Part shown: positions 9,582 through 25,404 of the stretch, piece by piece
Numbering within the stretch: the first letter of the stretch is position 1
Layout: each line of letters starts with the position of its first letter
From: Deltaproteobacteria bacterium
Lineage (GTDB): Bacteria; Myxococcota_A; UBA9160; JAFDET01
Length of the DNA: 35,820 nt
Assembly (NCBI GenBank): GCA_019310195.1
Contig: JAFDET010000014.1
Coordinates: 1 to 35,820, forward strand
Direction: 5' to 3'
Notes under the pieces: generated by a model
The model's input: only the letters and a program-made list of their open reading frames with translations
Database searches by the model: none
Told to the model about the DNA's origin: nothing
Translations under genes and position numbers: made by a program

Positions 9582-9734
9582 CTGCATAGAGCGACGTTCC
9601 TGCACAACTGCACCCAGTACCACTCCTGCATTCAGGGACGTTCCTGCGTAACTGCATGCGGTGCCACCACTAGCAGGACTGGTACTGGGTGCAGTTGTGC
9701 AGGAACGTCCCTCAGTGCAGGACTGGCACTTTGT
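9582..9734. repeat. dispersed inverted-repeat element, compound copy
   Basis: 9593-9629 is the reverse complement of 9673-9709 (36/37). A second overlapping pair, about 9618-9655 with about 9690-9729, is more diverged. About 125 bp align with 24364-24494. Confidence 0.9.
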
Positions 9735-9739
9735 GCAGG

Positions 9740-22328: not shown

Positions 22329-22397
22329 GGCGGCTCCGTTGGCTTGCAGGCCGGGCCAGATTAGAACATGTTCCACTTCTCTCACAGGGAAGGATCC

Positions 22398-24365
22398 ATG
22401 CGTCGACGGCTCGCGACTGCGGCGCTCGCAGCGCTCCTGCTTCCGGCGTGCGATCCGGCGCCGCCGCCCATCGACCTGTCCGGACCGCTGGCGGACTGGC
22501 CGGTCTACGGCGGCGACGAGCGGGGCGGACGCTGGTCCCCGCTCACCCAGATCAACCGCGACAACGTCGGGCACCTGGAGGTCGCCTGGCAGTACCACCA
22601 CGGCGACGTCTCCGACGGCAGCGACGGGTCGACGCGCACCTCGTTCAACGCCACGCCCATCGTCGTAGACGACACGCTCTACTTCTGCACGTCGTTCAAC
22701 CGGGTGATCGCGCTCGACGCCGCCAGCGGCGAAGAACGCTGGACCTTCGACCCGGGGCAGCGGACCACGCGCCTGCACGGCCCCTACCCCCGCGTGTGTC
22801 GGGGCGTGGATCACTGGCGCGACCCCGAGCGCCGACCGGGCCAGGCCTGCGCCGCACGGATCTTCACCGGGACCCTCGACTCCCAGCTGATCGCGCTGGA
22901 CGCCGCCACCGGGGAGCCGTGCGCGGACTTCGGCCGCGGCGGGCGCGTGCAGCTTCGCGAGGGCATCGGCGAGGCTCCGGACTGGGAGTACTACCCGACG
23001 TCGCCGCCGCTCACCGTACTGGACGTGGTGGTGGTGGGCGCGCTGGTGGCGGACAACGAGCGTGTGGACGCGCCGGCCGGCGTGGTGCGCGGCTTCGACG
23101 CGCGCAGCGGTGCGCTGCGCTGGGCCTGGGATCCGGTCCCGCCGGGATGGCAGGGACGGCCCACCACGGACGAGGGCGAGTTCACCGCTGGCACGCCCAA
23201 TGTGTGGGCCCCGCTCTCGGCGGATACGGAGCGCGGCCTGGTCTTCGTTCCCACCGGAAACGCCTCACCGGACCACTTCGGAGGCCAGCGCCAGGGTCTC
23301 GATCACTACTCCAGCGCCACGGTCGCGCTGGACGCGCGCACGGGAACGGTGGCGTGGCACTTCCCGACCGTGCACCACGACCTGTGGGACTACGACGTGC
23401 CGGCCCAGCCCACGCTGCTGGATTTCCGGCATCCCGACGGGCGAGTCGTGCCCGCGCTGGTCCAGCCCACCAAGATGGGTCTCTTCTTCCTGCTGAACCG
23501 GCTGAACGGCCGGCCGCTGTTCCCGATCGAAGAGCGGCCGGTGCCCCAGGGCGGCGTGCCGGGCGAAACCCTGTCGCCGACGCAGCCCTTCCCCACCCAC
23601 CTGCCGCCGCTGCACCCAACCACACTTACCCCCGACGACGCCTTCGGCTTCACGCCCTGGGACCGGGGCAAGTGCCGCGAGCGCATCGCGGAGCTGCGCT
23701 CCGAAGGCATCTACACGCCGCCCTCTGTCGAGGGCAGCGTCATCTGGCCGGGTCCGGCGGGGGGCCCCAACTGGGGCGGCATCTCCCTCGATCCGGAGCG
23801 GAACCTCGCCTACGTGAACCAGATGCGCCTGCCCCTGGTGGTCAAGCTGATCTCGCGCGAGGACTACGACGCGCTGCCCGAGAAGACGGTTACCTACCCC
23901 AACGACATGTACCCGATGCAGGGCACGCCCTACGCGGTGGTCCGCGGGCCGCTGCTCTCGCCGCTGGGCGCACCATGCAACCCGCCGCCGTGGGGAACCC
24001 TGACCGCGCTCGACCTGAGCGCCGGGAAGATCCTCTGGGAGGTGCCGCTGGGCAGCAGCCGCGACCAGGCGCCGTGGCCGATCTGGTGGCTCCAGGGCGA
24101 CGTGGGTGCACCCAACCTGGGCGGGTCCATCGTCACCGCCGGCGGCCTGCTCTTCATCGGCGCCACCACCGAGAAGACGTTCCGCGCCTTCGACGTGGAG
24201 AATGGCCGCGTGATCTGGAGCACGCGACTGCCCTACACGGCCAACGCAACCCCGCTCACCTACCGGCTGGACGCGCAGGGCCGGCAATTCGTGGTAATCG
24301 CCTCGGGCGGCCACGGCTGGTCAAAACCCGGCGACGCCCTGATCGCCTTCGCCCTCCCCAACTAA
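22398..24365 (+). CDS. PQQ-dependent dehydrogenase (membrane-bound glucose dehydrogenase-like) lipoprotein
   Basis: Lipobox LLLPACDP; WPVYGGDERGGRWSPLTQINRDNVGHLEVAWQYH; HHDLWDYDVPAQPTLLDF; GGPNWGGISLDPERNLAYVNQ. Confidence 0.9.
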   Translation: MRRRLATAALAALLLPACDPAPPPIDLSGPLADWPVYGGDERGGRWSPLTQINRDNVGHLEVAWQYHHGDVSDGSDGSTRTSFNATPIVVDDTLYFCTSFNRVIALDAASGEERWTFDPGQRTTRLHGPYPRVCRGVDHWRDPERRPGQACAARIFTGTLDSQLIALDAATGEPCADFGRGGRVQLREGIGEAPDWEYYPTSPPLTVLDVVVVGALVADNERVDAPAGVVRGFDARSGALRWAWDPVPPGWQGRPTTDEGEFTAGTPNVWAPLSADTERGLVFVPTGNASPDHFGGQRQGLDHYSSATVALDARTGTVAWHFPTVHHDLWDYDVPAQPTLLDFRHPDGRVVPALVQPTKMGLFFLLNRLNGRPLFPIEERPVPQGGVPGETLSPTQPFPTHLPPLHPTTLTPDDAFGFTPWDRGKCRERIAELRSEGIYTPPSVEGSVIWPGPAGGPNWGGISLDPERNLAYVNQMRLPLVVKLISREDYDALPEKTVTYPNDMYPMQGTPYAVVRGPLLSPLGAPCNPPPWGTLTALDLSAGKILWEVPLGSSRDQAPWPIWWLQGDVGAPNLGGSIVTAGGLLFIGATTEKTFRAFDVENGRVIWSTRLPYTANATPLTYRLDAQGRQFVVIASGGHGWSKPGDALIAFALPN

Positions 24366-24494
24366 CTGCACCCAGTACCAGACCTGCACGGAGGGACGTT
24401 CCTGCATAACTGCACTGGGGGTCAGTCCTACCCGCCAGGAGTGGTACTTGGTGCAGTTATGCAGGAACGTCCCTCCGTGCAGGTCTGGTACTTT
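24364..24494. repeat. dispersed inverted-repeat element with perfect 42-bp arms
   Basis: 24374-24415 agtaccagacctgcacggagggacgttcctgcataactgcac is the exact reverse complement of 24451-24492; 35-nt loop. Same family as 9582-9734. Confidence 0.95.
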
Positions 24495-24514
24495 ATGTGA
24501 TCTCCCCGCGGGGG

Positions 24515-24543
24515 TTTACAGAAACGATACGTATCGTTATTGT
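24515..24543 (+). promoter_or_regulatory. putative promoter with embedded 16-bp palindromic operator
   Basis: TTTACA (24515-24520), 17-nt spacer, TATTGT (24538-24543). Perfect palindrome AACGATACGTATCGTT at 24523-24538. Confidence 0.6.
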
Positions 24544-24552
24544 ATTCGGCCC

Positions 24553-25404
24553 TTGGACAAGCGCACCACAGAGCGCGAGGCCGTCGCCGAGCTCCGCGAC
24601 GGCATGACCATCGGCATCGGCGGTTGGGGCTCGCGCCGCAAGCCCATGTCCGTGGTGCGCGAGATCCTGCGCTCGGAGCTCCGGGACCTGACCCTGGTCA
24701 CCTACGGCGGTCCCGACGCCGGCCTGCTGTGCAAGACCGGCAAGGTCAGCCGGATCATCTACGGCTTCGTGTCCCTGGACTCGATCCCCCTGGAGCCGCA
24801 CTTCCGCGCGGTGCGTCAGGCCGGCTCCGTGGAGGCCGTGGAGCTGGACGAGGGCATGCTGCAGTGGGGGCTCTACGCGGCGACCCTGCGCCTGCCCTTC
24901 CTGCCCACCCGCGCCGGGCTGGGCTCCGACGTACTGGAGATCAACGAGCGCTGGATCAAGCCGGTGACCTCTCCGTACGCGGACGGCGAGGAGCTGGTGG
25001 CCATGCCCGCGATCGAGCTGGACGCCGCCTTCGTGCACCTGAACCGCGCGGACGCGCGGGGCAACGCCCAGTACCTGGGCCCCGACCCCTACTTCGACGA
25101 CCTCTTCTGCGGCGCCGCCAAGCGGCGCTTCGTGAGCTGCGAGCAGATCGTCGAGACCGGCGACCTGGTCAAGGGCGGCGTCCCCCAGACGCTGCTGCTC
25201 AACCGCAGCCAGGTGGACGGTGTGATCGAGGCGCCGCACGGCGCCCACTTCACCGAGTGTCCTCCGGACTACGGCCGCGACGAGGCTTTCCAGCGCGAGT
25301 ACGCCACCACCGCCAAGGACCCGGACCACTGGGACCGCTTCTACGCGAAGTACATCGACACCGTCGACGAGGCCGAGTACCAGAAGCGGGTGCGCGAAGC
25401 ATGA
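24553..25404 (+). CDS. ipdA: CoA-transferase-fold subunit A, IpdA-like (COCHEA-CoA hydrolase alpha)
   Basis: LDKRTTEREAVAELRDGMTIGIGGWGSRRKPMSVVREILRSELRDLTLVTYGGPDAGLLCKTGKVSRIIYGFVSLDS closely resembles remembered M. tuberculosis Rv3551. TTG start proposed. Confidence 0.85.
   Translation: MDKRTTEREAVAELRDGMTIGIGGWGSRRKPMSVVREILRSELRDLTLVTYGGPDAGLLCKTGKVSRIIYGFVSLDSIPLEPHFRAVRQAGSVEAVELDEGMLQWGLYAATLRLPFLPTRAGLGSDVLEINERWIKPVTSPYADGEELVAMPAIELDAAFVHLNRADARGNAQYLGPDPYFDDLFCGAAKRRFVSCEQIVETGDLVKGGVPQTLLLNRSQVDGVIEAPHGAHFTECPPDYGRDEAFQREYATTAKDPDHWDRFYAKYIDTVDEAEYQKRVREA

Follow-up and report, generated by a model that had tools for sequence, protein, structure and literature searches.

The element at the 3' end of a PQQ dehydrogenase gene in the window (the whole stretch of 35,820 nucleotides analysed here) is very probably a non-autonomous REPIN-like miniature, which originated from a TnpA-Y1 transposase of subclass 2.1 (RAYT/TIRYT) and is, or once was, mobilised by it. 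The genome of the window, here called G000, is a Myxococcota MAG of 3.72 Mb, 85.7% complete and 6.4% contaminated. In this genome, the ends of the element also flank a single-copy RAYT gene, which makes it most likely that the element is mobile, carries no gene and is copied by the RAYT.

The copy at the PQQ dehydrogenase gene spans positions 24364-24497 and consists of two inverted tagged units with truncated outer units. The TAA stop codon of the gene (22368-24365), located at 24363-24365 on the forward strand, overlaps the first bases of the element, AACTGCACCC, so that the gene indeed runs into it, as the first-pass annotation had claimed. The exact inverted repeat reported there was also recovered: the arms at 24374-24415 and 24451-24492 are 42 nt long, 100% complementary and separated by a spacer of 35 nt. 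Read from the left, the element begins with a truncated outer unit, AACTGCACCCAGTACCAGACC, and a linker, TGCACGGA, which precede the tag (24364-24392, forward strand) and match unit positions 15-32. The core of the inner left unit, GGGACGTTCCTGCATAACTGCAC, follows at 24393-24415 on the same strand, with the tag GGGACG at 24393-24398. In the loop between the perfect arms (24416-24450), a variant module, GGGGGTCAGTCC, was recognised, as was the tail of the right unit. The inner right unit is inverted (24442-24473, reverse strand), its tag reading CGTCCC at 24468-24473, and the truncated outer right unit (24474-24497, reverse strand) is degenerate. As RNA, the region 24364-24500 was predicted to fold with -106.9 kcal/mol (z = -15), none of 200 shuffles being as good, and an Rfam search with the element was without match. 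The U-tract, the absence of which had been remarked upon earlier, is indeed missing beside the arms, the right arm being followed by TTATGTGATCTCC. A rho-independent terminator, which requires a G+C hairpin followed by a U-tract, was rejected for this reason. NCBIfam models identified the upstream gene as a PQQ dehydrogenase (the best one, TIGR03074, scoring under its cut-off), and the downstream gene, starting at 24553, encodes a CoA-transferase family protein (PF01144), compatible with an identity as IpdA. Just 5' of this ipdA-like gene, we observed a perfect 16-bp palindrome, AACGATACGTATCGTT (24523-24538), which is conserved in the related genomes G001, G002 and G003 and looks like a putative repressor operator.

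A second copy in the window (9582-9738) contains units, with > and < denoting the two orientations, at > 9593-9622, > 9635-9666 and < 9680-9711, and a partial outer unit. The possibility that these two copies are the only ones in the genome, which would have counted against a dispersed element, did not hold: BLAST and a core pattern together yielded about 42 dispersed element loci and one transposase locus, the core pattern giving 53 hits per strand against 4-6 for a control pattern. Each element is built from a 44-nt end unit, which is present twice, and often three or four times, in inverted order, with tandem units on each side repeating at a 44-nt period. In G000, every copy with both orientations is ordered > (>) < (<), which means that the units face each other and that the tag GGGACG stands at the outer end of each. 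In the congener G002, one locus has an extra leading <. Outer units are often cut at one point, CTGCACCCAGTACCA; the outer left unit of the window copy is among them, its cut point having been found again in other copies. The core GGGACGTTCCTGCNNAACTGCA is nearly invariant, the modules outside it vary, and TGCANAACTGCA motifs form part of the unit. When the 34-nt arms of 33 copies were compared, mismatches were typically seen at about 5 positions, and the two arms were identical in only four copies. The perfect 42-bp match thus stands at the extreme of a looser family, of which the defining feature is the fixed core and not the perfect match. A single unit does not fold appreciably (z = -0.3 to -0.5); the inverted pair alone does so (z = -10). 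Plasmid and phage collections contained no DNA similar to the element. At two loci the inverted repeat was seen to extend into the flanks, by 22 nt at G000:C366 (L002) and by 47 nt at G000:C310 (L176), the latter copy lying near a contig end, where it may be an assembly foldback.

The best Y1_Tnp/HUH match in the genome, at C317 (L030), encodes a protein of 269 aa and is located inside a ">> gene <<" arrangement of units. The unit pairs upstream (1302-1392) and downstream (2295-2383) are in inverted order and correspond over 79 nt at 86%. In the congener G002, the orthologous locus has the same flanks and its protein is 88% identical. The first-pass annotation had proposed looking for a RAYT or Y1 transposase flanked by the same arms, and such a gene is thus present in both genomes. 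Together with the roughly 42 dispersed copies, these flanks support its suggestion of a REP/MITE-like unit mobilised by a RAYT. The 269-aa transposase contains the motifs NHLH, FQ and YVHANP, and 21 homologues show no variation at the HUH, FQ, Tyr and NP positions. It scored 71.3 bits with the NCBIfam model for REP-associated tyrosine transposases, just below the cut-off of 80, and its best PDB match by sequence is TnpA_REP (4er8), which is also the best PDB match of the structure predicted by AlphaFold for the G002 orthologue (pLDDT 89.7). The C-terminus is DnaA/HTH-like: the Pfam matches to HTH_23 and Bac_DnaA_C are weak and below cut-off, and the predicted G002 structure matches DnaA C-terminal domains in a viral library. 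By its motifs and C-terminal domain, the transposase fits TnpA-Y1 subclass 2.1 (the "TIRYT" group). The unit-flanked gene is single-copy and has not multiplied. An IS200/IS605 insertion sequence, for which a near-identical multicopy transposase gene would be required, was considered and rejected, as one copy was found. A second transposase, 44-46% identical and with different flanks, GGGACAGTCCCTTTAGTTGA, is present in both genomes (G000:C148, L031; G002:C66, L080).

Among 61 related genomes, the element was detected only in G000, G002 and, weakly, G003, which belongs to a sister genus. In G001, a member of the same genus, both the element and any homologue of the 269-aa transposase are missing. 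At the transposase locus, G001 and G003 have kept the neighbouring genes and lack the unit-flanked insertion. About 25 sites are common to G000 and G002, and since most sites are shared in this way, the insertions are for the most part old. On L186, G000 carries the element at two sites that are empty, or almost empty, in G002; any recent activity of the family is putative. The window site is filled in G002, and in G001 an unrelated stretch of about 760 bp is found there. In G003, the equivalent PQQ 3' end carries a copy of a family of its own, GGGGACGTTGGTT. The presence of two unrelated families at one PQQ 3' site suggests that this site is preferred or tolerated. In the G003 copy (G003:C34:9636-9705, L240), we observed that the palindromic family continues directly from the PQQ reading frame and, as the aligned frame reads, supplies the stop codon. 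Neither a base-precise junction nor a target duplication was readable at the window site and two comparison sites. A different arrangement was noted at G002:C86:651-1684 (L207), where the element halves (>> ... <) lie about 925 bp apart, with a short PEP-CTERM-motif region and no transposase between them; the region could be a passenger gene that was captured, or an insertion may have split the element.

The association of tag and transposase extends to related enzymes. Using homology as the criterion, we collected 86 related transposase loci, mostly from MAGs and from several phyla (Deltaproteobacteria-named, Clostridia, Myxococcota and other records), with related loci kept in the sample. 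GGGACG was the commonest upstream hexamer and occurred upstream at 70 of the 86 loci (shuffle mean 4.3), and CGTCCC was present downstream at 65 (6.5). Both inverted flanks, GGGACG...CGTCCC, were found at 60 loci, where 0.6 would be expected, and the opposite orientation at none, with 0.9 expected. Within the 24 nt past the tag, 49 less redundant arms exhibited an excess of self-similarity at lags 8 and 9 (z = 3.7 and 4.8, respectively; 13 lags tried).

Dispersed repeats also follow the transposase of their own genome. In 7 of 9 families, with the caveat that the arms were transcribed by hand, the arms flanking the RAYT best resembled the dispersed arms of the same genome, a result matched by 0 of 100,000 permutations. 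The two failures, G027 and G078, suggest that the enzyme acting on some repeats may be a different one, or may be missing or have been lost. G003 contains two different transposases, each with its own dispersed family: the family GGGGACGTTGGTT... gave 56 unit hits, mostly in facing pairs, and none in controls, and the family GGGGACGGTCC... was read at 8 loci. The pattern GGGACGTTN15-45AACGTCCC was present in 11 of 91 genomes of the class; G000 is missed by it because its spacer is longer. Of the nine genomes with two or more matches to this pattern, seven carry a homologue of the 269-aa transposase, compared with 20 of the 91 overall, a comparison among related genomes that is given without a p-value for this reason. 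We also observed 35 tagged pairs in G027, which fail to match the sequences flanking the transposase detected in that genome, and 2 tagged pairs in G030, where no homologue was found; these could possibly be orphan families, or reflect missing assembly.

Genes were called with our own caller, which applies a GC3 criterion suited to GC-rich DNA. By these calls all copies are intergenic and none lies inside a gene. A neighbouring gene 3' end was found at 50 nt or less from the first unit in 48 of 51 cases. The position relative to stop codons, which the first-pass annotation had wished to see mapped, is thus mostly one of direct adjacency. The 37 scored element regions comprised 17 convergent, 17 tandem and 3 divergent ones, against 16, 95 and 24 among the other regions of the same loci, which amounts to a convergent enrichment of 17/37 versus 16/135 (p = 1.7e-5). 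If the copies lie at gene ends, and preferentially between convergent genes, could they have arisen as a functional device? The position at gene 3' ends is compatible with a structured RNA or an insulator. In such an explanation, the element would first of all be a bidirectional terminator, a transcription insulator or an mRNA 3'-end stabiliser between convergent genes, and its link to the RAYT would be incidental. The great stability of the folded RNA is in line with this, as is the covariation of the arms in G003 (5 mismatches, versus 30.6 when shuffled). However, the same placement is also expected from avoidance of genes and promoters, a U-tract is lacking, and arm covariation is absent in G000, the window's own genome. 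The arms covary in G003 but not in G000, indicating that pairing of the hairpin is not uniformly maintained. A device would also leave unexplained why the units bracket a transposase in two species, and why flanks and families track each other genome by genome. We consider a functional device with an incidental RAYT link improbable. Function and selfish origin are not exclusive, since an element of selfish origin can come to serve such a function, and a secondary role of the copies at transcript ends is possible.

The long terminal inverted repeats, the small size and the many copies, in a MAG that is only 85.7% complete, would also suit a conventional TIR MITE, mobilised by the double-strand DDE transposase of an IS outside the assembly. 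Against this, the flanked transposase is a Y1 and not a DDE enzyme, target duplication was not seen at the sites examined (where junctions are not base-precise), and internal tandem 44-nt units are atypical of MITEs, which makes this explanation very unlikely. An assembly foldback or other artefact has next to no probability: the C310 copy, near a contig end and with 47 nt of its flanks also inverted, does resemble a foldback chimera, but the window copy is located mid-contig between unrelated flanks, and the independently assembled congener G002 has the element at the same site, which refutes an artefact for the window copy.

Returning to the REPIN-like miniature copied by a RAYT, how might a unit pair devoid of any gene spread? 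We infer that it is or was mobilised by the transposase whose flanks it shares. Single-stranded DNA exposed at replication would allow two units to pair up as a single long hairpin. The HUH/Tyr enzyme would bind this structure by recognising GGGACG as a guide, in the role of GTAG, and the adjoining short repeated motifs, which may be the DNA target of its DnaA/HTH-like C-terminal domain. The enzyme would then nick the unit pair and transfer it to a new site, so that the gene-less pair would be copied as single-stranded DNA, as was proposed for the copying of REP sequences by TnpA_REP (PMC8266576). Insertions would survive where they are harmless, mostly directly after stop codons. There may be an even chance that this holds more broadly, i.e., that subclass-2.1 RAYTs generally have their own tag, GGGGACG, and two direct motifs of about 8-9 bp recognised via the DnaA-like C-terminal domain, and form a separate and widespread REPIN class, the families of which independently re-occupy sites at gene 3' ends. 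The shared tag and the clean RAYT/repeat pairs make the model testable in vitro with one protein and one oligonucleotide set. The model also offers an explanation for the GGGGACG hairpins at gene 3' ends in this Myxococcota class.

Y1 transposase genes located between long inverted repeats were described previously (Di Nocera 2013; PMC3733652), with some of the repeats also forming dispersed families of moderate abundance, and elements of this kind are therefore already known. The TIR families in that report often occur as dimers or clusters, and many flanks contain the G-rich motif GGGGWSAS. Our system resembles these TIRYTs/TIRtrons in having a Y1 gene flanked by long inverted repeats that are dispersed elsewhere in the genome. 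It differs from them in the motif (GGGACG / GGGGACG), in the tandem 44-nt units on each side, and in the cognate pairs found in several genomes of one class. With respect to GGGGWSAS, our units read GGGACG, often GGGGACG, with G and not A at the seventh position, and some relatives have GGGGACA. With the REPIN/REP and RAYT systems (REPtrons) of groups 2 and 3 (PMC3116915, PMC8266576), the present one shares dispersed, intergenic, tagged inverted pairs, together with a RAYT that is present once and has these same units on both sides. By contrast, it has no GTAG/GTGG (GTRG) foot of canonical REPs and REPINs, the conserved tag being GGGACG; a single unit is not a stable hairpin, and a DnaA/HTH-like domain is added to the enzyme at its C-terminus. 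CGTC-tagged REPs (Di Nocera 2013) were considered because CGTCCC, the reverse complement of the tag, contains CGTC. These REPs are stem-loops of 8-9 bp that carry the tag at their foot and are not associated with a transposase, and membership in this family was rejected on structure, as our element lacks a single-unit stem and a transposase is present. Finally, the transposase shares with TnpA-Y1 subclass 2.1 (PMC6006769) the motifs NHxH, FQ and Y-x-x-x-N-P and a C-terminal HTH / DnaA_C-like domain. Quentin 2018 (PMC6006769) reported no REP-like sequences near subclass 2.1 genes, whereas here a tagged inverted repeat is common and can form families. In the open-access papers searched, we found none on Myxococcota with REP or RAYT. 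Compared with those papers, our findings add a shared GGGACG tag and, within a single Myxococcota class, cognate families in several genomes; they also provide a case that contradicts the reported absence of repeats around subclass 2.1 transposases.
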